From the NCBI RefSeq assembly GCF_000025545.1, contig NC_013930.1, positions 1 through 64,000 on the forward strand: 64,000 nucleotides of DNA, in the 5' to 3' direction. This stretch comes from Thioalkalivibrio sp. K90mix (lineage in GTDB: Bacteria; Pseudomonadota; Gammaproteobacteria; Ectothiorhodospirales; Ectothiorhodospiraceae). How positions within the stretch are numbered: position 1 is the stretch's first letter; the number at the start of each line of letters is the position of its first letter. A program made the position numbers and the translations under genes. Under the pieces are notes generated by a model, which was not told the origin of the DNA, did not search any database, and saw only the letters and a program-made list of their open reading frames with translations. This document shows positions 8,685 through 60,899 of this stretch, piece by piece.

Positions 8685-8707
8685 TGTCCGGGGTGCCAAC
8701 CGAGAAA

Positions 8708-8736
8708 TCGACCGCTGTCCGGGTCTTGGCTACGCT
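8708..8736 (+). promoter_or_regulatory. TCGACA-family promoter (variant)
   Basis: AAATCGACC (TCGACC at 8708-8713) and TACGCT (8731-8736) with a 17-base gap match the promoter family that recurs through 9-40 kb. It drives the gene at 8769. Confidence 0.5.
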
Positions 8737-8768
8737 AGGAACGTGGAAGACATCCACGGACGGAAGCC

Positions 8769-9035
8769 ATGAGCAGTCATCACAAGAAGTACCGCCCCTA
8801 TATCCGCCGCCAGCACCCGGCCGACCGCGCCGATGATTTCAGCACAGCCCTGCGCCTGGCACTGTTTCAGGAGAACGGCTGGCGGGGCTGGGTTCTCGTG
8901 CAACACGGTGTACGCGGCAAGGTCGTGGAGATCGCCCGATCCCGAGGCGAGCTGATTCATTCGATGGTAGGTGCAGACGAGGGATTTCAGGCTTGGGCCC
9001 GGCGGGTTCAGGCGTTCGGCCCGCTTGTCGGATAG
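8769..9035 (+). CDS. hypothetical 88-residue basic protein
   Basis: Family not recognised. The N-terminus is His/Lys/Arg-rich (HHKKYRPYIRRQHPADR) and may bind nucleic acid; the rest is predicted helical. It starts 32 bp after a TCGACA-type promoter. The ribosome binding site is weak. Confidence 0.6.
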   Translation: MSSHHKKYRPYIRRQHPADRADDFSTALRLALFQENGWRGWVLVQHGVRGKVVEIARSRGELIHSMVGADEGFQAWARRVQAFGPLVG

Positions 9036-9106
9036 AGGCACACCCTACCTGCCCGGCGGGTCTGAAGCCGTTCCCCTGGCGTGGTGGGCGCTGACGCCCG
9101 AAGAAA

Positions 9107-9134
9107 TCGACAGACCCAAGCCGAGCGATAGCAT
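9107..9134 (+). promoter_or_regulatory. TCGACA-family promoter
   Basis: TCGACA (9107-9112), 16 bases, TAGCAT (9129-9134). The paralogous promoter at 18349-18376 has the same spacing and the same -10. The ATG at 9133 lies inside the -10 and is not used. Confidence 0.6.
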
Positions 9135-9165
9135 GGAAGCGAACAGTCAGAACAAGGAAGAACGC

Positions 9166-9423
9166 ATGGAACAGACCACACCGACACCCCCCGGATCCGA
9201 CGCTGACAGTGCGGATGCTCGACGCGGGCGCTTCCTGGTGGAGAACGGCGCCTGGTTGCGTTTCGGCGTGGATCAGGAATCGGAGGAAGACCGGAGTGCG
9301 GCGCTGGCGGTCCGTGTCCCGTTCAAGACCGATCTCTCGACGGTCGCCACCCGTGAGGACGCGGTGGATGCCGCAATCGAGGCCGCCGAACAAGCGACGA
9401 GCGAGGCGCATGGCAATGGCTGA
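9166..9423 (+). CDS. hypothetical 85-residue acidic protein, duplicated at 18408
   Basis: Family not recognised. Residues 25-85 are nearly identical to the C-terminal half of the product of the gene at 18408, which carries an extra helical segment of about 50 residues near its N-terminus. The start at 9166 follows AAGGAAG. The gene ends overlapping the next one, so the pair is translationally coupled, and the pair is duplicated as a unit. Confidence 0.7.
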   Translation: MEQTTPTPPGSDADSADARRGRFLVENGAWLRFGVDQESEEDRSAALAVRVPFKTDLSTVATREDAVDAAIEAAEQATSEAHGNG

Positions 9424-9590
9424 GACCGGCTACATCGTCCGCGCCTACCGATATCCGGTACTACCCGCGGCGTCCCCCGACTGGGAATCGACCCCTTATG
9501 CGCGGATCGAACCGATCAAGCGCTCGGCTCGGAGTCATTACCTCGCCCACAACGCGCGGTACCGCTACGAGATCCAGGCGGTTGAGGTGG
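9247..9590 (+). repeat. recent direct duplication, copy 1 (other copy 18662-19005)
   Basis: By reading, about 340 bases appear identical to 18662-19005. The block spans the end of one gene and most of the next. Divergence begins abruptly on both sides, which fits a recent duplication or gene conversion. Confidence 0.85.
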
Positions 9591-9703
9591 GAAAGAACGA
9601 CGGAGCGGTACAAGTCCTGTCTCGGGCGCCCCTACTGGAAGCTGCGCCCGAGCCGGGTGCCGCCCGGCTACGCTGGGTGTCCTGCGAGAACGGGGGCGCA
9701 TAG
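9410..9703 (+). CDS. hypothetical 97-residue basic protein, duplicated at 18823
   Basis: Family not recognised. The product is basic and beta-rich (TGYIVRAYRYPVLPA near the start) with no signal or membrane segment. The ATG at 9410 (or 9416) lies within the end of the preceding gene. The copy at 18823 differs mainly after residue 63. Confidence 0.65.
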   Translation: MAMAETGYIVRAYRYPVLPAASPDWESTPYARIEPIKRSARSHYLAHNARYRYEIQAVEVGKNDGAVQVLSRAPLLEAAPEPGAARLRWVSCENGGA

Positions 9704-10914: not shown

Positions 10915-11090
10915 TGGACCTGGAGAGCTGACAGCCACCGGCCCGAAGGCCAGTGAATACCGGTCGGAACCGGACATGGGTCCATCCATCTGACGTTTGC
11001 AACCACGGCCCCATCGGGACGTGAGATCCATTGGACCCGAACAGGGATAGCCTGCCACAGGCCCTGGCCTATGACGAGCGCCCTATAAAC

Positions 11091-11158
11091 TCGACAGATC
11101 CGCGGCGTTCGCTACGCTGAAGCCTCATTCAACGGAACCGGCCCGGAGCCGGCAGGAG
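11091..11158 (+). promoter_or_regulatory. TCGACA-family promoter with leader hairpin
   Basis: TCGACA (11091-11096), 16 bases, TACGCT (11113-11118). The leader carries the hairpin CCGGC-CCGGA-GCCGG (11138-11152) directly touching CAGGAG. The same layout recurs at 12558, 14061, 14589, 19979, 20721, 28501 and 29898. Confidence 0.65.
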
Positions 11159-11165
11159 AATCATC

Positions 11166-12486: not shown

Positions 12487-12557
12487 CCCGGCCGCCCCTG
12501 TACGGCACTCCTCGCCCCATCGGCACGGATGCACGCCCCGCGGTCCACTGCCAATAA

Positions 12558-12633
12558 TCGACAGATCCGGCGTCTTCGATACGCTGGAGTCTCCATCAAC
12601 GGATACCGGCCCGGAGCCGGCAGGAGCTTTTCA
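12558..12633 (+). promoter_or_regulatory. TCGACA-family promoter with leader hairpin
   Basis: TCGACA (12558-12563), 16 bases, TACGCT (12580-12585), then the ACCGGCCCGGAGCCGG hairpin and CAGGAG before the ATG at 12634. Confidence 0.65.
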
Positions 12634-13113
12634 ATGTCGCAACAGAACTACTATCGCAAGACCGTCACCGTGACCTTCTACGCCGAGAACCCGGAGGTAC
12701 TGGAGCAATCGGTCGAAGGTCTGGCTCAAGAAGCGGTTACGGGGGAGATCGTCGCGGATGCAGGCGACCAGAAGACCGAGACGATTTCGCCATTGGAGGC
12801 CGCCTACGGTCTGATCCGCGCGGGCTCCGAGCCCAGATTCTTCATGGATCTCCCGGACCCCGAACTGATTAACGAGAACCCCGAGGTCGAGGAGTGCATC
12901 GTCGCCCTGGCGCGCTGCGACATAGAGACCCCCGAGTTCGATGAGGCCCTTGGCCGCTTGCAGGCCATTATCGGTGTGAATTCCGGAGACCTGGCGGCTC
13001 AGTTCTTTTCGGGTATGGACTGGGCAAATATGGCCGCCAACGTGCGCCGCGACAAGGTCCGAGGCTACATCGGGGCCGAGCAGTCCCACGCCGATTCCGC
13101 CGTGAGCCGATAG
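12634..13113 (+). CDS. hypothetical 159-residue acidic protein
   Basis: Family not recognised. Acidic and soluble, with a beta-rich start (YYRKTVTVTFYAENPEV) and helical remainder. It is a single-gene unit behind its own TCGACA promoter and hairpin leader. Confidence 0.7.
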   Translation: MSQQNYYRKTVTVTFYAENPEVLEQSVEGLAQEAVTGEIVADAGDQKTETISPLEAAYGLIRAGSEPRFFMDLPDPELINENPEVEECIVALARCDIETPEFDEALGRLQAIIGVNSGDLAAQFFSGMDWANMAANVRRDKVRGYIGAEQSHADSAVSR

Positions 13114-13993: not shown

Positions 13994-14060
13994 CACGCTT
14001 CGAGTTGGGGTGAGACACGGGGAATGCCCGTCAGAAACGGCGATCACACGCTCCAAAAAA

Positions 14061-14135
14061 TCGACAAGACCACGCGATTCGCTACGCTGGAGCCTCATTC
14101 AACGGAACCGGCCCGAAGCCGGTAGGAGAATCCCC
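14061..14135 (+). promoter_or_regulatory. TCGACA-family promoter with leader hairpin
   Basis: TCGACA (14061-14066), 16 bases, TACGCT (14083-14088), hairpin CCGGCCCGAAGCCGG, then AGGAG. Nearly identical to 19979-20053, including the upstream bases, so the two are duplicates. Confidence 0.65.
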
Positions 14136-14516: not shown

Positions 14517-14588
14517 CCCCCGAGTTCTCGAGAAACATCCGAGCGAGAGCCCACCGCAAGGCGGATCGACGGAGGGCGGGAGAAGAAA

Positions 14589-14665
14589 TCGACAACCCGC
14601 CCTCCTCGGCTATTCTGGAACCATACCCATCACGGATACCGGCCCGAAGCCGGCAGGAGAATACC
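14589..14665 (+). promoter_or_regulatory. TCGACA-family promoter with leader hairpin
   Basis: TCGACA (14589-14594), 16 bases, TATTCT (14611-14616), hairpin ACCGGCCCGAAGCCGG, AGGAG, ATG at 14666. Confidence 0.65.
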
Positions 14666-15037
14666 ATGAGTCATTCAGTCGATAAGGACCGCATCTTCAC
14701 CCTCGACTCGGGGGAGTTCGACGACTTTGGTGTGGACGTGTTCGCCCGCGCGCTGGAGGATTTGGACCTGTTCGCGCTGGGCGAGGCCTACGTGAACGCC
14801 GTGGCAGCCGGAGAAGCCCCGGCCCCTGGCATGACCCCGAATATCGGGTTCGCCGCGTGGCTGGAGGCGCAGGGCAAGATCGAGCGCCTGTCCGTCGATC
14901 GCCACCACACCGGTCGCACAGGGACGTTTATCCTGGCCCCGGGGCGCGATCTCGAGATGGCGACCCGCAAGGGGGAACGCGCCAAGGCGGACGCAGAGTA
15001 TCCGTATGCCGAACACGAGGGTCTGCACAAGGATTGA
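14666..15037 (+). CDS. hypothetical 123-residue protein
   Basis: Family not recognised. Acidic helical first half, then a basic segment with a short beta hairpin (RTGTFILAPGRD). No signal or membrane segment. First gene of a unit that probably runs to 16682. Confidence 0.7.
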   Translation: MSHSVDKDRIFTLDSGEFDDFGVDVFARALEDLDLFALGEAYVNAVAAGEAPAPGMTPNIGFAAWLEAQGKIERLSVDRHHTGRTGTFILAPGRDLEMATRKGERAKADAEYPYAEHEGLHKD

Positions 15038-16682: not shown

Positions 16683-16877
16683 GCGGGTCGAGGGCGCGCG
16701 TCAGCAGAAGCGACCACGCCGAACCCCTATGTTCAGCGCGAACCGGGCGCGGTGAGCCCCTGCCTCACCCGTGTGGCGTTCCGGAATGCGCCGGGGCGAA
16801 TCCGAGAAGCCCTTCCGTTTCGCCGTGACAAGGGGATGGATTCGCGCGCCGCGCGAACACGAAGAGGCCATGGAAAA

Positions 16878-16905
16878 TCGACAAAAGGAAGTTGGAGTTC
16901 AGGAT
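16878..16905 (+). promoter_or_regulatory. TCGACA-family promoter, weaker -10
   Basis: AAAATCGACA (TCGACA 16878-16883) is followed after 16 bases by CAGGAT (16900-16905). It precedes the gene at 16965. Confidence 0.45.
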
Positions 16906-17351: not shown

Positions 17352-17389
17352 GGGAACGAGTGGGGCACAAGTGGGGCGCAGCCTGAAAA

Positions 17390-17465
17390 TCGACAGATCT
17401 GAAGGACTCGTTACGATGAAGCCTCCATCAACGCAAGCGGCGCAGAGCCGCTAAGGAAATATCCA
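17390..17465 (+). promoter_or_regulatory. TCGACA-family promoter with compensated leader hairpin
   Basis: TCGACA (17390-17395), 16 bases, TACGAT (17412-17417). The leader hairpin is AGCGGC-GCAGA-GCCGCT instead of CCGGC/GCCGG: stem bases changed on both sides while pairing is kept, followed by AAGGA. Confidence 0.65.
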
Positions 17466-18328: not shown

Positions 18329-18348
18329 TTTGGGGATGGCGGAAGAAA

Positions 18349-18376
18349 TCGACAGGCCACGGCCGGGCGATAGCAT
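18349..18376 (+). promoter_or_regulatory. TCGACA-family promoter
   Basis: TCGACA (18349-18354), 16 bases, TAGCAT (18371-18376). Paralogous to the promoter at 9107-9134. Confidence 0.6.
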
Positions 18377-18407
18377 GGAAGCGAACTAACAGATCAAGGA
18401 GCCCCGC

Positions 18408-18836
18408 ATGGAACAGACGCCCTCGACCCCACGGCCAAAGGAATCAGGTGTGCGCCTGCACGAGATCCTGATTGAGCTGGCGGAGGTCCTCGGTGCGGAG
18501 GAAGACCCCGAGGCTTATATGTGGGACGTCAGCGACGTGCAGGACTGGTTGCATGAGGTGGCGGATCTGATGGCAGCCCTGCCCTCGGTGTCCGAAGTGG
18601 GTCACGAAGATGCGAATCAGGCGCAGGATGCGCGACGCGGTCGTTTCCTGGTGAAGCACGGCGCCTGGTTGCGTTTCGGCGTGGATCAGGAATCGGAGGA
18701 AGACCGGAGTGCGGCGCTGGCGGTCCGTGTCCCGTTCAAGACCGATCTCTCGACGGTCGCCACCCGTGAGGACGCGGTGGATGCCGCAATCGAGGCCGCC
18801 GAACAAGCGACGAGCGAGGCGCATGGCAATGGCTGA
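18408..18836 (+). CDS. hypothetical 142-residue protein, longer paralog of the product at 9166
   Basis: Family not recognised. The C-terminal 65 residues are almost identical to the product at 9166. About 50 extra helical residues (after residue 15, LHEILIELAEVLGAEEDP and on) separate the common N-terminal M-E-Q-T from the common C-terminus. The start follows AAGGAG. Confidence 0.7.
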   Translation: MEQTPSTPRPKESGVRLHEILIELAEVLGAEEDPEAYMWDVSDVQDWLHEVADLMAALPSVSEVGHEDANQAQDARRGRFLVKHGAWLRFGVDQESEEDRSAALAVRVPFKTDLSTVATREDAVDAAIEAAEQATSEAHGNG

Positions 18837-19005
18837 GACCGGCTACATCGTCCGCGCCTACCGATATCCGGTACTACCCGCGGCGTCCCCCGACTGGGAA
18901 TCGACCCCTTATGCGCGGATCGAACCGATCAAGCGCTCGGCTCGGAGTCATTACCTCGCCCACAACGCGCGGTACCGCTACGAGATCCAGGCGGTTGAGG
19001 TGGGC
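18662..19005 (+). repeat. recent direct duplication, copy 2 (other copy 9247-9590)
   Basis: By reading it appears identical to 9247-9590 over about 340 bases. Part of a larger collinear set of paralogs described among the findings. Confidence 0.85.
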
Positions 19006-19116
19006 AAGAAGGACGGAGCGGTTCAAGTCCTATCCCGGAAGACCCTGCTGGAAGCCACGCCCGAGCCGGGTACCGCCCGGATACGCTGGGTGTCCCGCGA
19101 GAACCGGGGCGAATAG
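18823..19116 (+). CDS. hypothetical 97-residue basic protein, copy of the product at 9410
   Basis: Family not recognised. Identical to the product at 9410 for the first 60 or so residues, then a few substitutions. Overlaps the preceding gene in the same way as its copy. Confidence 0.65.
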   Translation: MAMAETGYIVRAYRYPVLPAASPDWESTPYARIEPIKRSARSHYLAHNARYRYEIQAVEVGKKDGAVQVLSRKTLLEATPEPGTARIRWVSRENRGE

Positions 19117-19960: not shown

Positions 19961-19978
19961 ATCACACGGTGCGAAAAA

Positions 19979-20053
19979 TCGACAAGACCACGCGATTCGC
20001 TACGCTGGAGCCTCAATCAACGGAACCGGCCCGAAGCCGGCCAGGAGAACGTT
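19979..20053 (+). promoter_or_regulatory. TCGACA-family promoter with leader hairpin
   Basis: TCGACA (19979-19984), 16 bases, TACGCT (20001-20006), hairpin CCGGCCCGAAGCCGG, CAGGAG. A duplicate of 14061-14135 now driving a different gene. Confidence 0.65.
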
Positions 20054-20269: not shown

Positions 20270-20718
20270 TGAAATGGAAGATTGGTGGACACGTTCTGCT
20301 GTTGGTCTCACTCGTGCTTCTGGTGGCGCTTCGGGGCTTTGAGATCCATCTTGGCGACGAGGACGTCTCAAGCGCCCTCAAGTCCTGGCTTGCGGTGGTG
20401 GCGGTCAACGGAACCGGCGGACTGATTTTCGCGGGGTATGGCTTGGCGGGCCTGACATGGAACAAGGCCCAGGGCAGCGCGCACGAGATGGCGGTAAAAC
20501 TCCTCGACGGCTTGTTCCTGATCAATTTGTCGTTGATCGGCGCCGCTGGGGTGATGTGGATCCTCCACGATGCGCAACAATCGCATTTGCCCGATGTGCA
20601 GGCATCCATGATCGCCCCCTTGGTAGCGGTTGCGGCCACTCTGGTCGTCCTGTTGATTGCGACCGAAATCCGGAATCATCTCGCGAGCCGAGAGGGATCG
20701 GGAAACGCGGAGCCGTAA
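20269..20718 (+). CDS. four-helix membrane protein, unknown function
   Basis: Four hydrophobic segments (about residues 6-23, 36-60, 78-100 and 113-133) with short loops and a basic C-terminus. ATG at 20269; GTG at 20266 is also possible. Family not recognised. Confidence 0.65.
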   Translation: MKWKIGGHVLLLVSLVLLVALRGFEIHLGDEDVSSALKSWLAVVAVNGTGGLIFAGYGLAGLTWNKAQGSAHEMAVKLLDGLFLINLSLIGAAGVMWILHDAQQSHLPDVQASMIAPLVAVAATLVVLLIATEIRNHLASREGSGNAEP

Positions 20719-20720
20719 AC

Positions 20721-20792
20721 TCGACAGATCCGGCCGGTTCGCTACGCTGAAGCCTCATTTAACGGAACCGGCCCGAAGCCGGCAGGAGAACC
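20721..20792 (+). promoter_or_regulatory. TCGACA-family promoter with leader hairpin
   Basis: TCGACA (20721-20726), 16 bases, TACGCT (20743-20748), hairpin CCGGCCCGAAGCCGG, CAGGAG, ATG at 20793. Confidence 0.65.
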
Positions 20793-21103
20793 CATGACAC
20801 CCCCGATTCGAGTACCTGACCTGCTGCGTGGACGATGACGCTGAAGCGATCGATGCGATGGTTAATGGGTCGACTGAGGTGTCCGCACGCACGTTCCGGC
20901 GCCGCTGTGACTGGACGCAGGCCAGCGAGATGCTCGGCTATGATCAGTGCCCGCCAGGATTGCGACTGGATACCGATTTCGCGGTCAGCTTCCACAAGAG
21001 TCACTTCAAGGGGCGGCCCTGCTATTACATCGTCCATAGCGCGATCGAGTACGTGTTTGTGAGCCCGGAGCACCGCGCAGAACGGATGGCGGAGGGCACC
21101 TGA
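20793..21103 (+). pseudogene. hypothetical gene frameshifted at a CCCCC tract
   Basis: The ATG at the expected distance from AGGAG opens a frame that stops after 14 codons. With one C fewer in the CCCCC run at 20797-20801, it continues as M-T-P-R-F-E-Y-L-T-C-C-V-D-D-D-A-E and runs to 21103 (about 102 residues). A GTG at 20828 could start a shortened form. The tract could be a slippage site, a switch, a mutation or a sequencing error. Family not recognised. Confidence 0.65.
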
Positions 21104-24583: not shown

Positions 24584-27500
24584 ATGCATCAGAAGGCCCA
24601 ATCCCCCCAGCTGCTGAAAAAACCGCTCGCGTTGGCGATCGGCGTGGTGCTGGCGAGCGCCTACCTCACCTCTGTATCGGCCGGGGAATCCGGTATCCGG
24701 GTGGTGCTACCCGACACCAGCGACAAGGTGGATACCGCCGGAATGACCCCGACCCCGGGGGATCCGGAGGTCTGGAACTCCTACGCCCACTCCGAAGGCT
24801 TTTCGACGGTCGGCGACTACGCCACGGATGATGTGGCTTTCAATAGTGAATCGGCCACCTGCCTGCCGATGGGTCCGGGCTGCGAAGACTTCAATGACTA
24901 CTTCCCCGAGCCGAACCCCGCGGGTGACCTGCGGTTCAACAGCAACGACCTGGTGAGTACGACCGGGCTGGAGACCATCGAGACGGTGGGGGGTGAACTG
25001 AACCTCAGTTTTAATGATCTGACCGACGTGGATGGGCTTTCGGGGCTGCGTGAAGTGGGCGGGACACTGAACCTGCGGGGCAACGACCTGACCGACCTGC
25101 GGGGACTGGGCAGCCTGCACACGGTGGGCGGTGCGGTCTTCCTGGACCGAAACGACCTCCAGACGCTGGACGGTCTGGAGAACCTGGAGGAGACGGGCAG
25201 CATTTACCTGTACGGGAACGACCTGACGGATATCTCGGCCCTGAGCGGGCTCCGTCGCGCGGGTGGCATCTTCCATCTGTACGACAACCCCCGCCTGGCT
25301 GACCTGTCGCCGCTGTCGAACATCGAAGACGATGTGGCCTTCCAGGGCTCATTCGGCGGTCAGGTCCGCATCGACGCCGGCATCCATGAGCGCGCGGGCT
25401 TCGTGCCGATCCAGGGCGGCGCCCTGTGCCAGGACCACAACGCCGATGCGTTCAACGATAGCTACGCCCAGCAGGCCGAGGTGTGCGCGGATGATACGAT
25501 GGAGGCCTCGGCCACCTGGAACTCCTACGCCCACTCCGAAGGCTTTTCGACGGTCGGCGACTACGCCACGAATGATGTGGCTTTCAATAGTGAATCGGCC
25601 ACCTGCCTGCCGATGGGTCCGGGCTGCGAAGACTTCAATGACCACTTCCCCGAGCCGAACCCCGCGGGTGACCTGCTGTTCAACAGCAACGACCTGGTGA
25701 GCACGGCCGGGTTGGAGACCATCGAGACGGTGGGGGGTGAACTGAACCTCAGTTTTAATGATCTGACCGACGTGGATGGGCTTTCGGGGCTGCGTGAAGT
25801 GGGCGGGACACTGAACCTGCGGGGCAACGACCTGACCGACCTGCGGGGACTGGGCAGCCTGCACACGGTGGGCGGTGCGGTCTTCCTGGACCGAAACGAC
25901 CTCCAGACGCTGGACGGTCTGGAGAACCTGGAGGAGACGGGCAGCATTTACCTGTACGGGAACGACCTGACGGATATCTCGGCCCTGAGCGGGCTCCGTC
26001 GCGCGGGTGGCATCTTCCATCTGTACGACAACCCCCGCCTGGCTGACCTGTCGCCGCTGTCGAACATCGAAGACGATGTGGCCTTCCAGGGCTCATTCGG
26101 CGGTCAGGTCCGCATCGACGCCGGCATCCATGAGCGCGCGGGCTTCGTGCCGATCCAGGGCGGCGCCCTGTGCCAGGACCACAACGCCGATGCGTTCAAC
26201 GATAGCTACGCCCAGCAGGCCGAGGTGTGCGCGGATGATACGATGGAGGCCTCGGCCACCTGGAACTCCTACGCCCACTCCGAAGGCTTTTCGACGGTCG
26301 GCGACTACGCCACGAATGATGTGGCTTTCAATAGTGAATCGGCCACCTGCCTGCCGATGGGTCCGGGCTGCGAAGACTTCAATGACCACTTCCCCGAGCC
26401 GAACCCCGCGGGTGACCTGCTGTTCAACAGCAACGACCTGGTGAGCACGGCCGGGTTGGAGACCATCGAGACGGTGGGGGGTGAACTGAACCTCAGTTTT
26501 AATGATCTGACCGACGTGGATGGGCTTTCGGGGCTGCGTGAAGTGGGCGGGACACTGAACCTGCGGGGCAACGACCTGACCGACCTGCGGGGACTGGGCA
26601 GCCTGCACACGGTGGGCGGTGCGGTCTTCCTGGACCGAAACGACCTCCAGACGCTGGACGGTCTGGAGAACCTGGAGGAGACGGGCAGCATTTACCTGTA
26701 CGGGAACGACCTGACGGATATCTCGGCCCTGAGCGGGCTCCGTCGCGCGGGTGGCATCTTCCATCTGTACGACAACCCCCGCCTGGCTGACCTGTCGCCG
26801 CTGTCGAACATCGAAGACGATGTGGCCTTCCAGGGCTCATTCGGCGGTCAGGTCCGCATCGACGCCGGCATCCATGAGCGCGCGGGCTTCGTGCCGATCC
26901 AGGGCGGCGCCCTGTGCCAGGACCACAACGCCGATGCGTTCAACGATAGCTACGCCCAGCAGGCCGAGGTGTGCGCGGATGATACGATGGAGGCCTCGGC
27001 CACCTGGAACTCCTACGCCCACTCCGAAGGCTTTTCGACGGTCGGCGACTACGCCACGAATGATGTGGCTTTCAATAGTGAATCGGCCACCTGCCTGCCG
27101 ATGGGTCCGGGCTGCGAAGACTTCAATGACCACTTCCCCGAGCCGAACCCCGCGGGTGACCTGCTGTTCAACAGCAACGACCTGGTGAGCACGGCCGGGT
27201 TGGAGACCATCGAGACGGTGGGGGGTGAACTGAACCTCAGTTTTAATGATCTGACCGACGTGGATGGGCTTTCGGGGCTGCGTGAAGTGGGCGGGACACT
27301 GAACCTGCGGGGCAACGACCTGACCGACCTGCGGGGACTGGGCAGCCTGCACACGGTGGGCGGTGCGGTCTTCCTGGACCGAAACGACCTCCAGACGCTG
27401 GACGGCCTGGAGAACCTGGAGGCGACGGGCAGAATTTACCTGTACGGGAACGACCTGACGGATATTTCGGCCCTGAGCGGGCTGCGTCGCACTGGCAACC

Positions 27501-28480
27501 GCTTCCATCTGTACGACAACCCCCGCCTGGCCGATCTGTCGCCGCTGTCGAACATCGAAGACGATGTGGTCTTCCAGAGCTCATTCGGCGGTCGGGTCCG
27601 CATCGACGCCGGAATCCATGAGCGCGCGGGCTTCGTGCCGATCCAGGGCGGCGCCCTGTGCCAGGACCACAACGCCGATGCGTTCAACGATAGCTACGCC
27701 CAGCAGGCCGAGGTGTGCGCGGATGATACGATGGAGGCCTCGGCCACCTGGAACTCCTACGCCCACTCCGAAGGCTTTTCGACGGTCGGCGACTACGCCA
27801 CGAATGATGTGGCTTTCAATAGTGAATCGGCCACCTGCCTGCCGATGGGTCCGGGCTGCGAAGACTTCAATGACCACTTCCCCGAGCCGAACCCCGCGGG
27901 TGACCTGCTGTTCAACAGCAACGACCTGGTGAGCACGGCCGGGTTGGAGACCATCGAGACGGTGGGGGGTGAACTGAACCTCAGTTTTAATGATCTGACC
28001 GACGTGGATGGGCTTTCGGGGCTGCGTGAAGTGGGCGGGACACTGAACCTGCGGGGCAACGACCTGACCGACCTGCGGGGACTGGGCAGCCTGCACACGG
28101 TGGGCGGTGCGGTCTTCCTGGACCGAAACGACCTCCAGACGCTGGACGGCCTGGAGAACCTGGAGGCGACGGGCAGAATTTACCTGTACGGGAACGACCT
28201 GACGGATATTTCGGCCCTGAGCGGGCTGCGTCGCACTGGCAACCGCTTCCATCTGTACGACAACCCCCGCCTGGCCGATCTGTCGCCGCTGTCGAACATC
28301 GAAGACGATGTGGTCTTCCAGAGCTCATTCGGCGGTCGGGTCCGCATCGACGCCGGAATCCATGAGCGCGCGGGCTTCGTGCCGATCCAGGGCGGCGCCC
28401 TGTGCCAGGACCACAACGCCGATGCGTTCAACGATGACTACGCCCAGCAGGCCGAGGTATGCGAGAGCGTTGAGGGGTAG
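24584..28480 (+). CDS. 1298-residue secreted protein with five 248-residue leucine-rich repeat blocks
   Basis: A signal peptide (residues 1-38, ending S-V-S-A-G-E) precedes the shared motif I-R-V-V-L-P-D-T. The rest is five tandem blocks of 248 residues. Each has a Cys pair (C-L-P-M-G-P-G-C), six leucine-rich repeats of about 20 residues (L-N-L-S-F-N-D-L, L-N-L-R-G-N-D-L, V-F-L-D-R-N-D-L, I-Y-L-Y-G-N-D-L types) resembling receptor-L/LRR surface domains, and a second Cys pair (A-L-C-Q-D-H...E-V-C). It is probably exported and exposed; ligand unknown. AAGGAG precedes the ATG. Confidence 0.85.
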   Translation: MHQKAQSPQLLKKPLALAIGVVLASAYLTSVSAGESGIRVVLPDTSDKVDTAGMTPTPGDPEVWNSYAHSEGFSTVGDYATDDVAFNSESATCLPMGPGCEDFNDYFPEPNPAGDLRFNSNDLVSTTGLETIETVGGELNLSFNDLTDVDGLSGLREVGGTLNLRGNDLTDLRGLGSLHTVGGAVFLDRNDLQTLDGLENLEETGSIYLYGNDLTDISALSGLRRAGGIFHLYDNPRLADLSPLSNIEDDVAFQGSFGGQVRIDAGIHERAGFVPIQGGALCQDHNADAFNDSYAQQAEVCADDTMEASATWNSYAHSEGFSTVGDYATNDVAFNSESATCLPMGPGCEDFNDHFPEPNPAGDLLFNSNDLVSTAGLETIETVGGELNLSFNDLTDVDGLSGLREVGGTLNLRGNDLTDLRGLGSLHTVGGAVFLDRNDLQTLDGLENLEETGSIYLYGNDLTDISALSGLRRAGGIFHLYDNPRLADLSPLSNIEDDVAFQGSFGGQVRIDAGIHERAGFVPIQGGALCQDHNADAFNDSYAQQAEVCADDTMEASATWNSYAHSEGFSTVGDYATNDVAFNSESATCLPMGPGCEDFNDHFPEPNPAGDLLFNSNDLVSTAGLETIETVGGELNLSFNDLTDVDGLSGLREVGGTLNLRGNDLTDLRGLGSLHTVGGAVFLDRNDLQTLDGLENLEETGSIYLYGNDLTDISALSGLRRAGGIFHLYDNPRLADLSPLSNIEDDVAFQGSFGGQVRIDAGIHERAGFVPIQGGALCQDHNADAFNDSYAQQAEVCADDTMEASATWNSYAHSEGFSTVGDYATNDVAFNSESATCLPMGPGCEDFNDHFPEPNPAGDLLFNSNDLVSTAGLETIETVGGELNLSFNDLTDVDGLSGLREVGGTLNLRGNDLTDLRGLGSLHTVGGAVFLDRNDLQTLDGLENLEATGRIYLYGNDLTDISALSGLRRTGNRFHLYDNPRLADLSPLSNIEDDVVFQSSFGGRVRIDAGIHERAGFVPIQGGALCQDHNADAFNDSYAQQAEVCADDTMEASATWNSYAHSEGFSTVGDYATNDVAFNSESATCLPMGPGCEDFNDHFPEPNPAGDLLFNSNDLVSTAGLETIETVGGELNLSFNDLTDVDGLSGLREVGGTLNLRGNDLTDLRGLGSLHTVGGAVFLDRNDLQTLDGLENLEATGRIYLYGNDLTDISALSGLRRTGNRFHLYDNPRLADLSPLSNIEDDVVFQSSFGGRVRIDAGIHERAGFVPIQGGALCQDHNADAFNDDYAQQAEVCESVEG
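24773..28480 (+). repeat. five 744-bp tandem repeats inside the LRR gene
   Basis: Units start at about 24773, 25517, 26261, 27005 and 27749. Units 2 and 3 look identical; units 4 and 5 share variants in their second half (for example A-T-G-R-I for E-T-G-S-I). The pattern implies recent unequal exchange. Confidence 0.9.
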
Positions 28481-28500
28481 TAGCTGACCTGAAAAGAAAA

Positions 28501-28577
28501 TCGACAAGAAGAACCGATTCGATACGATGACATCTCCTGACAACCTGGAGCCGGCCCAAAGCCGGACAGGAGGCTTC
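28501..28577 (+). promoter_or_regulatory. TCGACA-family promoter with leader hairpin
   Basis: TCGACA (28501-28506), 16 bases, TACGAT (28523-28528), hairpin GCCGGCCCAAAGCCGG, AGGAGG, ATG at 28578. Confidence 0.65.
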
Positions 28578-28904
28578 ATGCAGACCCTCTGCTCGTTCAC
28601 CCTCAACGAAAAGCGATTCGTTCAGGGGAAGAACGCCCTGAAGGATGTTCCGGAATCGTTCGGATTCTTCCGCAAGACGCGCGGCGGTCTGCTGCTGTTC
28701 CTGCGCAACGGTCGCCGTATTGGCGGGGTCCGCCGGGACGGGTTGATCTATCGATCCTCCAGGTTGGAGATCAACGGAAAACCCCGCTGGTGGCATCAGC
28801 CCGCGCCACCGGAGGAACTCGGCGGCCTCGAGTACATGAGTCTCGAGTCGCACGAGGAAGCCCGGAAAGCCCTGGAAATCGGGTTCGAGGCCCAACCCTC
28901 GTGA
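28578..28904 (+). CDS. hypothetical 108-residue basic protein
   Basis: Family not recognised. Beta-rich and basic, with strands such as GGLLLFLRNGRRIGGV, and an acidic helical tail. First gene of a unit probably running to 29853. Confidence 0.65.
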   Translation: MQTLCSFTLNEKRFVQGKNALKDVPESFGFFRKTRGGLLLFLRNGRRIGGVRRDGLIYRSSRLEINGKPRWWHQPAPPEELGGLEYMSLESHEEARKALEIGFEAQPS

Positions 28905-29853: not shown

Positions 29854-29897
29854 CAAACGGAGTCACCGGCTACACCTGCTCAGACAGGCCCGAAAAA

Positions 29898-29971
29898 TCG
29901 ACAGATCCCGCCGCCCCGATAGACTGGCCCCCAACTCACGGATACCGGCCCGGAGCCGGCAGGAGCTCCAC
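29898..29971 (+). promoter_or_regulatory. TCGACA-family promoter with leader hairpin
   Basis: TCGACA (29898-29903), 16 bases, TAGACT (29920-29925), hairpin ACCGGCCCGGAGCCGG, CAGGAG. Confidence 0.65.
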
Positions 29972-30163
29972 ATGGATCAAGTATTCAGCCAGAACACCCT
30001 CCACGATCACATCGCCGCGCACGGAATGGGTGACCCAACCCCGGAGGGTTGCGCTCTGGGGCGCCGTCTTATCGAGACAGGCGATGATTATGCGACGGCC
30101 GCTCACGAAGTCGTGGCTCGGGGGCTGACGCATCCACCGGAGGAAGACGGTGATGACGATTGA
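29972..30163 (+). CDS. hypothetical 63-residue acidic protein
   Basis: Family not recognised. Single gene behind its own promoter and hairpin; helical with an acidic C-terminus (EEDGDDD). Confidence 0.65.
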   Translation: MDQVFSQNTLHDHIAAHGMGDPTPEGCALGRRLIETGDDYATAAHEVVARGLTHPPEEDGDDD

Positions 30164-30222
30164 TCGTCTGAAAGGCACCCCCCGACTCTGCGTGGAGCCG
30201 CCTAAGCCCCACCCACGAAAAA

Positions 30223-30250
30223 TCGACAGAAAGTGGGCGCGGCGGATACT
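30223..30250 (+). promoter_or_regulatory. TCGACA-family promoter
   Basis: TCGACA (30223-30228), 16 bases, GATACT (30245-30250), then AAAGGAA before the ATG at 30280; no leader hairpin here. Confidence 0.55.
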
Positions 30251-30279
30251 GACCGCGAACCCATTAAAAAGGAACCGGG

Positions 30280-30516
30280 ATGATTCCAGATAAACGCGTG
30301 AACTCCTTCCACGTCGGCCAGGTATGGGAAAGCCCTAAAGGGACCTTCTACCGTGTCATGGACCGCCAGCGCGGCGGCAAGGCCACCCTGCGCCTCGACG
30401 CAGACGGATCCGGCCGCAAGACGGTACGCGATTGGGATGCCGTGATCGGCTGGGTCTTGTACGGCGACCCCGAGCATGCGGACGAATACCCCACTGGACA
30501 GGAAACCCGGGCGTGA
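30280..30516 (+). CDS. hypothetical 78-residue protein
   Basis: Family not recognised. Beta-rich small domain (VGQVWESPKGTFYRVM, ATLRLDADG) resembling short SH3-like barrels. Overlaps the next gene by GTGA. Confidence 0.65.
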   Translation: MIPDKRVNSFHVGQVWESPKGTFYRVMDRQRGGKATLRLDADGSGRKTVRDWDAVIGWVLYGDPEHADEYPTGQETRA

Positions 30517-30823: not shown

Positions 30824-31753
30824 TTATCCGCAGGCGCGTTTGGCTTTGCGGGCCATCCCGCCAAGGATCCTGCGAACGAGCGGCCGCAGAAAAGGCGTGA
30901 CATGCACGAGCGCCGCACCGAGCGGACTCAGGAGACGATAAAGCCCGACCAGAGGGGCACCATACCACTGGGCGCGCAAAGGCCCGTCCCGCCACGCACG
31001 AAGAGCCATGACGTCTGAGTGATTGAGGGTCTGGTAGACCGCCGTCGAAAACACCAAGAACGCGGGCATACGACGGGTGAACACCCGTAGAGAGCCTGAC
31101 GGGAAGCTGAAGGTGTCGGAGGAGCCTCGTGCCGTTCGCTCCTGGATGTATGCCGCAATCGCGGCCCAGCGCTCTTCCACCCTCTCCTGCTCGGTCTGAT
31201 GATCCTGACGCTCGATGTCCGCCAGCATGGCTCGGAGCACCCGGCCCTCCCGGCTCTTCAGCCAGTTCACGGTATGCGTCACATGCTCAGGCAGGTTCTG
31301 GACCGCAGACGCGTTGGCGATGCGGACGATGGCGGCATGCATCGGGCGACGCGCTGCCTCGGGGTTGTCGCGGTCGATCTCCACCGATTCACGCCGCTTC
31401 CCCGTATGGTATTCGCACAGCTCCAGGAGGAGTTCGAGCTGATCCACTTCGGGAAGTTGTCGGGGTACCAGGTTGAGAAAGCGCGTTGCCGTCTTCCCGG
31501 ACATCTTCACTCGGCCGGAGCGCCAGCGGGGAAGCGTCTCGATGGCGTAGTCGTGCGCGCTCGATCCAAACGCGCGTCGATAATTGTCGAACAGCGCATC
31601 CAGCTGTTCCTCGGAGAGCCGGAACAGCGTATCCAGAACCTCGTCCACAAACGGCGGGCCGATACGCCGGCGCAGCCGCTTGAAGTCCTCGATATGTTCG
31701 AGGGCCCGGCGCTGTTCACTCGATAGAGCACGCCCGCCGTAGTGGTAAGCCAT
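30824..31753 (-). CDS. hypothetical 309-residue helical protein
   Basis: Family not recognised. Charged, mostly helical; a more hydrophobic region near the C-terminus (about residues 255-295) is probably not a full membrane anchor. It is the first gene on the minus strand in this part and has a TCGACA-like promoter upstream at 31859-31832. It converges with the gene ending at 30776. Confidence 0.65.
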   Translation of the reverse strand: MAYHYGGRALSSEQRRALEHIEDFKRLRRRIGPPFVDEVLDTLFRLSEEQLDALFDNYRRAFGSSAHDYAIETLPRWRSGRVKMSGKTATRFLNLVPRQLPEVDQLELLLELCEYHTGKRRESVEIDRDNPEAARRPMHAAIVRIANASAVQNLPEHVTHTVNWLKSREGRVLRAMLADIERQDHQTEQERVEERWAAIAAYIQERTARGSSDTFSFPSGSLRVFTRRMPAFLVFSTAVYQTLNHSDVMALRAWRDGPLRAQWYGAPLVGLYRLLSPLGAALVHVTPFLRPLVRRILGGMARKAKRACG

Positions 31754-31831
31754 TCTGCTGTCCTTGCTCCAGGTCCGTAAAAGCCCAATCCGGGTGCCCG
31801 AGATCGCGCGTCAGAGGGTTTTGTTGGGGAA

Positions 31832-31859
31832 AGATCGCACGGGGGCCGCAATCTGTCGA
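31832..31859 (-). promoter_or_regulatory. TCGACA-family promoter, minus strand
   Basis: Reading leftwards, AAATCGACAG (TCGACA 31859-31854) is followed after 16 bases by CGATCT. The -35 side is clear, the -10 poor. Confidence 0.4.
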
Positions 31860-31969
31860 TTTAATCCGACCCACCCCCTCCCCATCGGGGGCGCAGTGGC
31901 GTTACAGTCGGGACAGAACCCGGTGATTGGGGCCGGGCCCCTCAAGCAAGGATGCGAAGGAGGTCAAGG

Positions 31970-34013: not shown

Positions 34014-34113
34014 GTCATTCATCCTTGAAGAGATCGATAAAACTGATAACGCGCATCGGAGACTACAGGGGGCTCCAAGGGTCGTTCAAACCACAAGCCC
34101 GATGATTCAGAAA

Positions 34114-34141
34114 TCGACGGGTCACAGGGGTCTGGTAGCGT
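34114..34141 (+). promoter_or_regulatory. TCGACA-family promoter (variant)
   Basis: AAATCGACG (34114-34119), 16 bases, TAGCGT (34136-34141), then a leader with CGGCCCAGAGCCG hairpin before the ATG at 34192. Confidence 0.55.
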
Positions 34142-34191
34142 GGTACCTCGATCAATGGAAACGGCCCAGAGCCGAAACGGAGCCCCCACCC

Positions 34192-35159: not shown

Positions 35160-35174
35160 GTTCGGCCCAACAAA

Positions 35175-35202
35175 TCGACAGACATTCGGCAGTCGGCATA
35201 CT
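35175..35202 (+). promoter_or_regulatory. TCGACA-family promoter with leader hairpin
   Basis: TCGACA (35175-35180), 16 bases, CATACT (35197-35202); the leader hairpin CCCGTCCGCAGCGGG then touches GCAGGAG. Confidence 0.6.
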
Positions 35203-35248
35203 GCAAGTCCACCCAACGTAACCCGTCCGCAGCGGGGCAGGAGAAACC

Positions 35249-35662
35249 GTGGAAAAGATCATCAACAACCCCGAGCACCCCGATCAGCCGCTGTACGCCG
35301 GTTATGTATTCTGGGACACCCGCGCCGACTTCTATGCAGCGGTGTACGCAGACACGGCGGAGGAAGCCAAGGAGAAGCTGATTGATCAAGAAGGCGAGCT
35401 GATGCTATTCGCCACCGTGGAGGATCAATGGTTCGGCGAAGGATACGTCGAGGAGGTCAAAGAGACGACGAAAGAGTATATGGATTCCCTGCCGGAACCG
35501 GACCCCCTCCGCCGCGCCCTGAAGATGATCAAGGCCCGTATCGAGGGGGCGTACGACGACGTCAACCTGATGGAATGGGGGCCGCTGGGAACCGATCCCT
35601 TGCGGGACATCGAGGACATGCTGAATAAGGCCCTGGCCGGAGCGCCGCTGGTGCGTACTTGA
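35249..35662 (+). CDS. hypothetical 137-residue acidic protein
   Basis: GTG start behind AGGAG. A beta-rich first 60 residues (Y-A-G-Y-V-F-W-D-T-R-A-D-F-Y-A-A-V-Y-A-D-T-A-E-E-A) resembles the product at 49718; helical C-terminus. Family not recognised. Confidence 0.65.
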   Translation: MEKIINNPEHPDQPLYAGYVFWDTRADFYAAVYADTAEEAKEKLIDQEGELMLFATVEDQWFGEGYVEEVKETTKEYMDSLPEPDPLRRALKMIKARIEGAYDDVNLMEWGPLGTDPLRDIEDMLNKALAGAPLVRT

Positions 35663-36823: not shown

Positions 36824-37077
36824 TTCACAGCGTCATGCTCACCCTGAAGCAGGCACTGGCGGCGATACTGGCATTAGCCGCCGCCGTGGGATTCGCTGCC
36901 GTGGCGCTTTGGGTGGGTGTTCAGATCATGGGATCTGTCGAAACCGCTGGCTGGATCGCCTTTTTCGCCACGGCCGGCGGGCTTTACACCACAATGCTTA
37001 TCGCCCTTGTCGGCCTGGCGATGGTGGCGACAGCCGTGTCGCACTGGAACTGGGGTGACGACGGAGCGAGCCGATGA
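36814..37077 (+). CDS. two-helix membrane protein
   Basis: GTG start with GGGAGG 7 bases upstream, overlapping the previous stop codon. Two hydrophobic helices (about residues 12-36 and 45-75). Overlaps the nuclease gene by ATGA; the three genes 36362-38159 form a coupled envelope/secretion unit. Confidence 0.6.
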   Translation: MSLIHSVMLTLKQALAAILALAAAVGFAAVALWVGVQIMGSVETAGWIAFFATAGGLYTTMLIALVGLAMVATAVSHWNWGDDGASR

Positions 37078-38807: not shown

Positions 38808-38837
38808 GGAAACGCCTTTGAATGGGGTGATGGCCCC

Positions 38838-38865
38838 ACTATCCACGCCTCGACCCGGCTGTCGA
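38838..38865 (-). promoter_or_regulatory. TCGACA-family promoter, minus strand of a divergent pair
   Basis: Reading leftwards TCGACA (38865-38860), 16 bases, GATAGT (38843-38838). Back to back with the plus-strand site at 38895. Confidence 0.55.
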
Positions 38866-38894
38866 TTTTCCCGGCGCGCACCCGCGCGAGAAAT

Positions 38895-38927
38895 CGACAA
38901 AAGCGCGGGATCCGCTTCAATAGGATC
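38895..38927 (+). promoter_or_regulatory. TCGACA-family promoter, plus strand of a divergent pair
   Basis: AAATCGACA (38895-38900); the best -10 is TAGGAT at 38922 but with 21 bases between, or TTCAAT at 38917 with 16. AAGAGGA precedes the gene at 38955. Confidence 0.45.
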
Positions 38928-38954
38928 GAACCGACATTCAAGAGGATCTAAGCG

Positions 38955-39350: not shown

Positions 39351-39389
39351 GGCGCGGACGGCAACCCGTCAAATCCATTTGCCAAGAAA

Positions 39390-39724
39390 TCGACAAGCCG
39401 AAACGTTCTGGCAATCTGGACCCATCGAAACCAACACCGGTCGCCTGTGGCGGCTGAGGCGAAACACCGGCGGCCCCGGCCAACTGGAACAGGGGTGGGA
39501 TTTGCAGGCGAGTGCCCGAGGGATATGGCCCCGAAAACCCCTGCACCAAGGACTGCCGCCGGGCCATCGCGCCCATCTCCTCGGCAGGGCCAAGGGGAAA
39601 CGCCACCTCACGGCGCCGCGCGTTGCAGGTGACAACGCACAATGCAGCGGTTGCTCATGGACATCAGCGACCCCGTACCGACGCCGGCACCGATCAGGAC
39701 GATCAGGCCGGCGTTTTTTATGGG
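39390..39724 (+). ncRNA. 291-bp transcription unit copy A (candidate small RNA), inverted copy at 56535
   Basis: TCGACA (39390-39395), 16 bases and CAATCT (39412-39417) precede a 291-base block (39434-39724) that ends in a terminator: ACGCCGGC/GCCGGCGT stem with TTTTTT (39690-39719). The block reappears inverted at 56535-56825 with, by reading, one mismatch. Each copy has its own promoter outside the identical block. Frames inside are short or run through the terminator, so a small RNA is favoured over a protein, but a 35-codon frame (39522) exists. Confidence 0.55.
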
Positions 39725-40086: not shown

Positions 40087-40106
40087 CGTCGCCCTCCGAG
40101 AAGAAA

Positions 40107-40134
40107 TCGACAGCCTGGCGCCGAAGGGTACCTT
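40107..40134 (+). promoter_or_regulatory. TCGACA-family promoter
   Basis: TCGACA (40107-40112), 16 bases, TACCTT (40129-40134), upstream of the lipoprotein gene at 40186. Confidence 0.55.
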
Positions 40135-40185
40135 GAATGCCGGCTACAAAAGAAAGCCGCCAACCAACGACCGAGGTAAAAAGCG

Positions 40186-40419
40186 ATGAAGAAGATGACG
40201 ACCCTTCTATCCACAGTGACCCTGACCCTTCTGCTGGGCGCATGCGCCGGGGAAGAAAGCAATCTTTCTCCGGAAGCGCAGGAGCTCAAGGACAGCATGA
40301 GCGACTCCGAGCTCGAGGATTTCGAAGGCTACGCGAACATGATGGGAGCCACGCTTGAAGAGGCGCTCGAGGCCGAGGCCTCGGACATCGACGCGGGGCG
40401 ATCCGATGGTGAGTTCTAG
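40186..40419 (+). CDS. small lipoprotein, tandem paralog of the product at 39844
   Basis: 77 residues: lipobox L-L-L-G-A-C, then N-L-S-P-E-A-Q-E-L and a helical, very acidic tail. The shared L-S-P-E-A-Q-E and the E-E-A-L-E segment mark it as a paralog of the preceding gene. Function unknown. Confidence 0.75.
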   Translation: MKKMTTLLSTVTLTLLLGACAGEESNLSPEAQELKDSMSDSELEDFEGYANMMGATLEEALEAEASDIDAGRSDGEF

Positions 40420-56312: not shown

Positions 56313-56362
56313 CTCTCCTCCTTGAGGACGATTGGTTGATTGGGGTTCTGGATCGCTCGCAA

Positions 56363-56390
56363 ATACTACTCACGACACGTTGGGTGTCGA
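56363..56390 (-). promoter_or_regulatory. TCGACA-family promoter, minus strand
   Basis: Reading leftwards TCGACA (56390-56385), 16 bases, TAGTAT (56368-56363), upstream of the operon at 56312. Confidence 0.6.
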
Positions 56391-56534
56391 GTTTCGTGAA
56401 TGGGGGAATCAGGACTTCGATCGATCAGCAATCCATTGCTAAGGGTGGCAGCCTCTGGCCCTCTGTGGCGCGCACTGTAGTGCGGCGTGACCGGACCTTC
56501 AAGTAGCGCAAGCGGATGGCGCGCTCACAACTGC

Positions 56535-56866
56535 CCCATAAAAAACGCCGGCCTGATCGTCCTGATCGGTGCCGGCGTCGGTACGGGGTCGCTGATGTCC
56601 ATGAGCAACCGCTGCATTGTGCGTTGTCACCTGCAACGCGCGGCGCCGTGAGGTGGCGTTTCCCCTTGGCCCTGCCGAGGAGATGGGCGCGATGGCCCGG
56701 CGGCAGTCCTTGGTGCAGGGGTTTTCGGGGCCATATCCCTCGGGCACTCGCCTGCCAATCCCACCCCTGTTCCAGTTGGCCGGGGCCGCCGGTGTTTCGC
56801 CTCAGCCGCCACAGGCGACCGGTGTGTTGTAAGGCCCCAGGTTGATCGATGCCGTGCGGCTGTCGA
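56535..56866 (-). ncRNA. 291-bp transcription unit copy B (candidate small RNA)
   Basis: Inverted copy of 39434-39724: TCGACA (56866-56861), 16 bases, CAACCT, then the 291-base block down to the terminator at 56568-56538. By reading one substitution separates the copies. Sequence outside the block, including the promoter spacer, is different, so selection or conversion acts on the transcribed part. Confidence 0.55.
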
Positions 56867-57180
56867 TTTTTTCGCTCCTTCGCACCTGGGGTTGAACCGC
56901 GTCCCTGCGATCCGTGCATCCGTGCCGGGCTCCTGCCCTAGTCTCCCTTGCCTCGTCCTGGGCCTGCGCTCCCTGCGCGCTTTTCCTGTTTTGGCGCTGG
57001 ATCCTTCCAGCTGCTCATCCCGGCTGTTCCGTTCCTGAGATGACTCCAGATTGCCCGAAGAAAACCGGTTGTCGATTTCTTGAAGGACGACCGCGAAAAA
57101 ACCGGAAATCCGAGCCGTCGACTTTTTGAAGAACGCGTGGCAGGGTCTAAAGAGCGAGTTGCAAAAGGACAAGGAACGTT
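56867..57180. other. intergenic region with further promoter-like sites
   Basis: Minus strand: TCGACA at 57075-57070 with CAATCT after 16 bases. A 26-codon frame follows (start about 57017). Plus strand: GTCGATTTCTTGAAGGACG (57071) and GTCGACTTTTTGAAGAACG (57117) are two similar boxes; TTGAAG with TAAAGA after 16 bases could drive the gene at 57181. No solid gene seen. Confidence 0.45.
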
Positions 57181-60716: not shown

Positions 60717-60797
60717 GCCGTCCTCCTTGGTCGCATCCTTACGCATCCTCCCATCGTTCGTTGAAAACCATGGCCGGTTCCGAATGAATGGATGACC

Positions 60798-60825
60798 AGT
60801 CTATCGAGGTGCACCCGCTTGTCGA
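60798..60825 (-). promoter_or_regulatory. TCGACA-family promoter, minus strand, for the ligA operon
   Basis: Reading leftwards TCGACA (60825-60820), 16 bases, TAGACT (60803-60798), the same -10 as at 29920. Confidence 0.6.
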
Positions 60826-60899
60826 TTTCTTTCAGCAAAGATCCGCGTGAACCTTCGCCCACTCGGGCGGGGAGGTAAGCGGGGGCCGCGCAAGCGGCC

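Follow-up and report, generated by a model that had tools for sequence, protein, structure and literature searches.

A plasmid-private promoter and leader class on the 240-kb plasmid of Thioalkalivibrio sp. K90mix

One promoter-like box recurs on both strands of a plasmid of the soda-lake bacterium Thioalkalivibrio sp. K90mix, in many copies followed by a leader hairpin, and it raises the question of which protein reads it. We analysed a window of 64,000 nucleotides, bases 1-64000 of a 240,256-base plasmid contig in a two-contig genome totalling 2,985,056 bases. The K90mix genome as published has the same total of 2,985,056 bases, made up of a 2.74-Mb chromosome and the 240-kb plasmid NC_013930 (PMC3368412). 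The reference cassette (11088..11165, plus strand) opens with the box AACTCGACA at 11088-11096 and the -10 element TACGCT at 11113-11118. Its leader consists of a hairpin (CCGGC at 11138-11142, loop CCGGA, GCCGG at 11148-11152) and the Shine-Dalgarno sequence AGGAG at 11154-11158, with the ATG at 11166. All 24 boxes listed in the initial annotation are present, each placed there at its TCGACA part, three bases into the box. The count of more than twenty given with that list is borne out but incomplete, as it left out a site at 38891 (+) and all sites beyond the window.

Using a position model of box and -10 element trained on AAATCGACA sites, we found 54 strong plasmid sites, and, once the gap between the two elements was allowed to vary, 61 copies of (A/G)AAATCGACA-16 nt-TAnnCT on the 240-kb plasmid. 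The same model gave no match scoring above 13 in the 280 kb of chromosome that we scanned. When up to two mismatches were allowed across the whole genome, the plasmid held 55 matches (229 per Mb), versus 12 on the 2.74-Mb chromosome (4.4 per Mb). Within the window, AAATCGACA with at most one mismatch occurs 34 times against 10.3 expected, and the maximum of 100 shuffles was 18. Beyond K90mix, exact matches were absent from 46 other genomes of the order, and in a class-wide search 36 of 369 genomes had one exact match each, which is chance level. Among the matches listed for viral contigs, each contig had one, as expected for a 14-base pattern, and leader DNA found no meaningful match among plasmids and phages. 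These absences refer to the collections searched, in which the K90mix record itself is possibly not included. We regard it as virtually certain that the cassettes form a real promoter-leader class private to this plasmid.

The placement of the copies is that of promoters. Fifty-seven of the 61 are intergenic in a replicon that is 86% coding (gene calls, coding figure and intergenic masks come from simple scripts of our own), so the box does not occur equally often inside genes, the finding that the initial annotation had named as speaking against a promoter. A same-strand start codon follows within 150 nt at 53 of the 61 sites, compared with 25% of random intergenic positions and strands. Site density is 0.50 per kb at 8.6-115 kb and 0.13 at 115-163 kb; it falls to 0.03 in the remainder, which is rich in transfer genes, and the first 8.6 kb contain no site. 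With 53 genes directly downstream of a box, and box-led units holding 88 of the 149 genes called at 8.6-115 kb and 118 genes plasmid-wide, the earlier suggestion of one regulon of dozens of uncharacterised genes is well supported.

Besides the reference copy, the window contains seven plus-strand cassettes with a complete hairpin of the usual kind: 12555..12633 (before ORF 12634-13113), 14058..14135, 14586..14665 (before ORF 14666-15037), 19976..20053, 20718..20793, 28498..28577 (before ORF 28578-28904) and 29895..29971 (before ORF 29972-30163). Three further plus-strand copies have altered hairpins: compensatory variants at 17387..17465 (AGCGGC/GCCGCT) and 35172..35248 (CCCGT/GCGGG, before ORF 35249-35662), and a shortened CGGC/GCCG stem at 34111..34191. 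Cassettes lacking a hairpin lie, again on the plus strand, at 8705..8768 (before ORF 8769-9035), 9104..9165 (before ATG 9166), 18346..18407, 30220..30279 (before ORF 30280-30516) and 38891..38954, the last being the one absent from the earlier list. The copy at 18346 is a paralogue of that at 9104 together with its gene: a block of promoter and two genes is duplicated at 9104-9703 and 18346-19116, and the first proteins are 93% identical over 75 residues. Other copies are a cassette at 40104..40185 (+; before ORF 40186-40419), a cassette at 60717..60828 (-; before ORF 60441-60716(-)), the box AACTCGACA with TAGTAT at 56313..56393 (-; before ORF 56010-56312(-)) and a box promoter at 57040..57078 (-) that has no ORF directly downstream. 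Weaker copies comprise 16875..16905 (+), where the box is AAATCGACA, 31754..31862 (-; before ORF 30824-31753(-)) and 38808..38868 (-), which is divergent from 38891. The initial annotation had given all its boxes a 16-base gap and a recognizable -10 element; the gap holds in 23 of its 24 boxes and is 17 at 8708, and the -10 elements at 16878 (CAGGAT), 31859 (CGATCT) and 38865 (GATAGT) are poor.

Two box promoters, at 39387..39721 (+) and 56535..56869 (-), are each followed by one of two identical copies of an apparently non-coding 291-nt element (39434-39724 and 56825-56535), whose 3' end is a terminator-like hairpin with a T run. Rfam gave this element no significant match, and the collections searched contained no close relative of it; it may be a small RNA of the plasmid that belongs to the box regulon. 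Another unusual case lies at 20718-20840, where the ORF behind the cassette stops after 14 codons; it either is what remains of a decayed gene or encodes a very short peptide. The plasmid also carries a second promoter-like class, TTGAACGACC-N14-TAnnnT, with six exact copies of the 10-mer, all intergenic: 34089(-) and 51606(-), the latter with CAnnnT, and plasmid positions 120580(-), 140537(-), 150741(+) and 192020(+). The 34089 site stands back to back with the box cassette at 34111, and the exact 10-mer is absent from 280 kb of chromosome. Other over-represented plasmid 9-mers sit within genes, many of them in leucine-rich repeats; a gene at 24584-28480 encodes a 1298-aa leucine-rich-repeat protein and contains four to five near-identical 744-bp tandem repeats.

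Across 55 core sites the box consensus is (A/G)A(G/A)AAATCGACA(G). The T, G and A of the hexamer are invariant (55/55), and C occupies its second position in 51/55; TCGACA as a whole accounts for 43/55 and TTGACA for 1/55. An A-rich flank precedes the hexamer, and columns upstream of -3 show no conservation. We found no palindromic partner of the box within 30 bases upstream, making it an asymmetric site. The gap from box to -10 is exactly 16 nt in 57 of the 61 sites. The -10 element has A(-11) at 54/55 sites and T(-7) at 55/55; C(-8) occurs at 39, and the element is followed by GG. When sigma-70 proteins melt a promoter, A(-11) and T(-7) are the two bases flipped out, and their near-invariance therefore identifies a -10 element of the sigma-70 family. 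Several -10 elements that start with C are preceded by TGG or TGA, resembling the TGn of an extended -10.

We compared this architecture with promoters of the host by surveying 680 kb of chromosome with long ORFs crudely masked, counting 5-mers located 16-18 nt (hexamer spacing) before TAnnnT. TTGAC was the top chromosomal 5-mer, with 9 occurrences against 0.5 expected, and TCGAC occurred 0 times against 1.4 expected. The chromosomal TTGAC sites are ordinary (for example, TTGACA-TATATT) and lack an A tract. In a survey of the same kind on the plasmid, TCGACA-N16-TAnnnT ranked first, with 32 occurrences against 0.5 expected. The box promoters thus have the -10 element of host sigma-70 promoters and lack the host-type TTGAC -35. 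Overall, with TTGAC on the chromosome and TCGACA on the plasmid, two -35 preferences coexist in one cell, divided by replicon; this is our main result, and it goes beyond the initial annotation. A constraint imposed by TCGA methylation was considered and rejected, since TCGA is equally frequent on both replicons (1.20 of expectation on the plasmid, 1.16 on the chromosome).

Could host RpoD alone account for these promoters? In such a scheme, one founder cassette with a weakened -35, TCGACA, would have multiplied and passed it on, with low expression tolerated on the plasmid. Because a single base separates the box from the sigma-70 -35, host RpoD might indeed use it weakly, and copies from one ancestor would retain the founder's C without any special reader. 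The sigma-70-type architecture, the TGn-like sequences beside the weaker -10 elements, and the visible relatedness of the cassettes by descent all fit. Against this, the spacer columns of the 55 core sites have drifted to background level while the hexamer columns held, including the C, and TTGACA, one step away and preferred by the host, was seen only once. Moreover, the spacer is fixed at 16, and the A-rich flank is missing from the chromosomal TTGAC promoters that we found. We therefore consider RpoD acting alone a rather unlikely reader, and think it fairly likely that the -35 specificity of the box needs something more. The initial annotation had proposed a dedicated regulator or sigma factor. 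Indirect support for this comes from the distinction between TCGACA and the host's TTGAC, from the rigid spacer, and from region 4.2 of host RpoD, which we take to be canonical by comparison with E. coli; a plasmid sigma factor did not turn up.

The three sigma-70 family models (PF04542, PF04545 and PF08281) match nothing on the plasmid, every match being chromosomal. This weighs against the idea that a divergent sigma factor, encoded by the plasmid or an alternative one from the chromosome, recognizes TCGACA-N16-TAnnCT. A rigid spacer and a strict two-part motif are what sigma specificity typically produces, and the chromosome does encode several sigma-70-family proteins other than RpoD, but a chromosomal sigma should have chromosomal targets, and the motif is essentially absent there; we judge this explanation improbable. 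Activators of known type were similarly missing: the FlhC family (PF05280) has no match in the whole genome, and no MotA- or AsiA-like family appears among the PHROG and Pfam matches listed for most plasmid proteins, a comparison that very divergent relatives would escape. The Pfam scan took in most plasmid proteins and the PHROG comparison a part of them, with families read from the matches listed. Given that nothing of a known type matched on the plasmid, a known-type sigma factor or activator is unlikely and a divergent one possible.

The plasmid does encode HTH_3 and other HTH proteins, and these could also supply a repressor. The box would then be its operator, covering the -35 element in otherwise ordinary sigma-70 promoters and serving as a plasmid-wide off switch in the manner of KorA/KorB. 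Confinement to the plasmid and the many units covered agree with an operator as well, but the box lacks both symmetry and a palindromic partner in the 30 bases upstream, and the fixed 16-nt spacing fits a promoter element better, which leaves a repressor operator very unlikely.

We consider it probable that the boxes define a plasmid-private regulon in which a putative plasmid-encoded factor alters -35 recognition by host RNA polymerase. Read from the DNA, this rests on the copy number, the plasmid confinement, the pre-gene placement, the -35-like AAATCGACA, the near-fixed 16-nt spacer and the sigma-70-type -10, together with leader hairpins whose stems covary and cassettes that recur almost unchanged in front of unrelated genes. 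In this model, host RNA polymerase carrying a sigma-70-family sigma would use the -10 element, and the putative plasmid protein would bind the asymmetric box as one site and alter -35 recognition, as T4 MotA does. The majority of small accessory genes at 8.6-115 kb would be transcribed as one regulon largely apart from host promoters.

The leaders downstream of these promoters, measured from box to ATG, are of three types: about 60 nt with no hairpin, about 78 nt with one, and about 108 nt with two. A hairpin of the form CCGGC-CCRNA-GCCGG adjoins the Shine-Dalgarno sequence in 27 of the 61 sites, in line with the earlier estimate that about half have a hairpin touching AGGAG, and 10 of these 27 leaders carry an extra upstream CCGCCCG...CGGGCGG hairpin. 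The three stem variants described earlier also proved real. Most leaders have CCGGC/GCCGG, the copies at 17387 and 103656 have GCGGC/GCCGC (with one G-U at 103656), and CCCGT/GCGGG occurs at 35172. In an ungapped alignment, 98.5% of helix 2 cells are paired, with two-sided changes in 2 of 5 pairs (3 sequences); helix 1 is 100% paired, with two-sided changes in 2 of 7 pairs (4 cells). Slid-alignment controls showed far lower pairing than both helices. The covariation supports genuine RNA pairing in the leader, but it is not overwhelming because the independent events are few and the sequences related.

The leader hairpins sit between the -10 and the Shine-Dalgarno sequence and have no T run, and no Rfam match was found anywhere in the window. 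One candidate role, a hairpin that frees the Shine-Dalgarno sequence, was rejected in silico, as 26 leaders did not differ from shuffled upstream sequence (p = 0.45). Although the hairpin may be a post-transcriptional element of the box regulon, we hold any assignment of leader function to be doubtful. Another candidate is translational control of the regulon by a CsrA-type protein, encoded by the plasmid and targeting the GGAs that flank the hairpin. A divergent CsrA-family protein is indeed encoded at 200075-200341(-), besides the chromosomal CsrA, and 25 of the 27 hairpin leaders keep a GGA a few bases ahead of the hairpin, with the Shine-Dalgarno GGA just 3'. RsmQ, a plasmid CsrA homologue, prefers ACGGA (PMC9928087), which is the sequence in type I leaders. 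However, AnGGA occurs in only about 12 of the 27 hairpin leaders, type II leaders carry GCGGA, and the leader GGA lies outside any predicted loop, whereas RsmQ prefers loops. Since the leaders are related by descent, the GGA conservation is not independent, and the chromosome has a CsrA of its own. We accordingly rate control by the plasmid CsrA as unlikely.

Comparison of individual cassettes suggests how they came to precede so many genes. The cassettes at 14058 and 19976 are alike at 67 of 73 positions, including an identical 15-nt stretch of spacer, and their similarity extends further upstream; their identity stops at the Shine-Dalgarno sequence, and the proteins encoded downstream show no detected similarity. 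Those at 11088 and 20718 agree at 66 of 73 positions from box to Shine-Dalgarno and nowhere else, again with no detected similarity between the downstream proteins. Among all the proteins downstream of cassettes, only 7 similar pairs were found. Near-identical cassettes before unrelated genes imply that the cassettes move or recombine independently of the genes, and we think it quite likely that they exchange by recombination. Recombination within the common cassette would let new genes acquire a ready-made promoter and leader, as has been proposed for the promoter early stem-loops (PeSL) of T4-type phages.

The box cassettes resemble three known systems and are a member of none. In T4 middle promoters, MotA with AsiA redirects sigma-70, and the MotA box wwwTGCTTtA lies 12 +/- 1 from the -10 (PMC2988021). 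The plasmid promoters share with these the number of sites (about 60), an element-specific asymmetric box in place of the host -35, a host-type -10 that in part has TGn, and the driving of the element's own genes by host polymerase. They differ in the box itself, AAATCGACA with 16 nt from hexamer to -10, and in being carried by a conjugative plasmid rather than a lytic phage; moreover, MotA promoters have no described hairpin leader. For the T4-type PeSL (Arbiol 2010, Comeau 2014), module shuffling has been proposed, and the title of the later study calls them promoter-terminator motifs (both via PMC4503421). As far as that account describes them, the two systems share repeats of promoter and stem-loop among small uncharacterised genes with signs of shuffling, and the hallmark of near-identical cassettes flanked by unrelated genes is seen here in the 14058/19976 and 11088/20718 pairs. 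By the same account, the PeSL stem-loop is a terminator, in contrast to the plasmid hairpin, which lies in the leader by the Shine-Dalgarno sequence and lacks a T run.

The third system, the SAS/ESAS of cluster K mycobacteriophages, is a 13-bp repeat, GGGATAGGAGCCC, at start codons (PMC3203893). Both here and in these phages, start-associated repeats include AGGAG and about half have an extra upstream inverted repeat; as further parallels, the phage repeats are confined to non-structural genes and missing from the host genome. Unlike them, the plasmid leaders carry CCGGC-loop-GCCGG-AGGAG instead of GGGATAGGAGCCC, their pairing covaries, and a promoter precedes them at fixed spacing, whereas the phage repeats have neither compensatory changes nor a promoter.

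Plasmids also offer precedents, in that KorA/KorB of IncP and AcaCD of IncC are each a case where a single plasmid-encoded factor governs many promoters of its own plasmid. Their operators, however, are known at far fewer promoters, mainly of the backbone, and here about 60 sites occupy the accessory region with almost none in the transfer region. AcaCD differs further in that the K90mix plasmid has no member of the FlhC/AcaC family, although the AcaB family is present, as are MobI, KfrA and ParB.

The conjugative plasmid has genes for both a relaxase of the MOBH type and an F-type transfer ATPase. It is rich in small genes, the majority of which have no Pfam match. A nuclease with two helix-hairpin-helix motifs, encoded at 37074-38156, fits the published K90mix DNase (PMC4777378). 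The plasmid additionally carries a phage-like DNA metabolism set (ribonucleotide reductase, dUTPase, dNMP kinase, uracil-DNA glycosylase, an NAD ligase, a GyrB-like topoisomerase, PhoH and a DarB-like antirestriction protein). In a viral-contig search with two plasmid proteins, one gave two weak matches and the other none. The top tblastn match of the relaxase was pGSUB1 of Geoalkalibacter subterraneus (NZ_CP010312, 242 kb), which has in common with the K90mix plasmid the transfer genes, type IV CRISPR (Csf), PhoH, SSB, a C5 methyltransferase and several small genes, at 25-67% identity. The Csf genes, at 61135-63435 of the window and 63526-66712 of the plasmid, are 27-33% identical to their pGSUB1 counterparts. 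The over-represented promoter of pGSUB1 is TTGACA-N17 (11 versus 0.9 expected), so a private -35 is not a trait of the whole plasmid family.

A fuller version of our model is possible, though we put it forward tentatively: a plasmid protein of a new kind would redirect -35 recognition to AAATCGACA, and about 60 exchangeable cassettes and a control layer of leader hairpins, perhaps served by the plasmid CsrA, would jointly switch on the accessory genes. Most plasmid accessory genes are uncharacterised, and the usual view is that piecemeal regulation or host sigma factors control them. In K90mix, about 120 genes on a single plasmid apparently lie behind one private promoter type, so a single experiment on its reader could reveal when and why the plasmid uses them. 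The cassettes would also offer a naturally occurring orthogonal type of promoter and an example, outside phages, of modules shuffled through a promoter-leader cassette. If a plasmid protein does redirect the -35, it would be the plasmid counterpart of sigma appropriation in T4.
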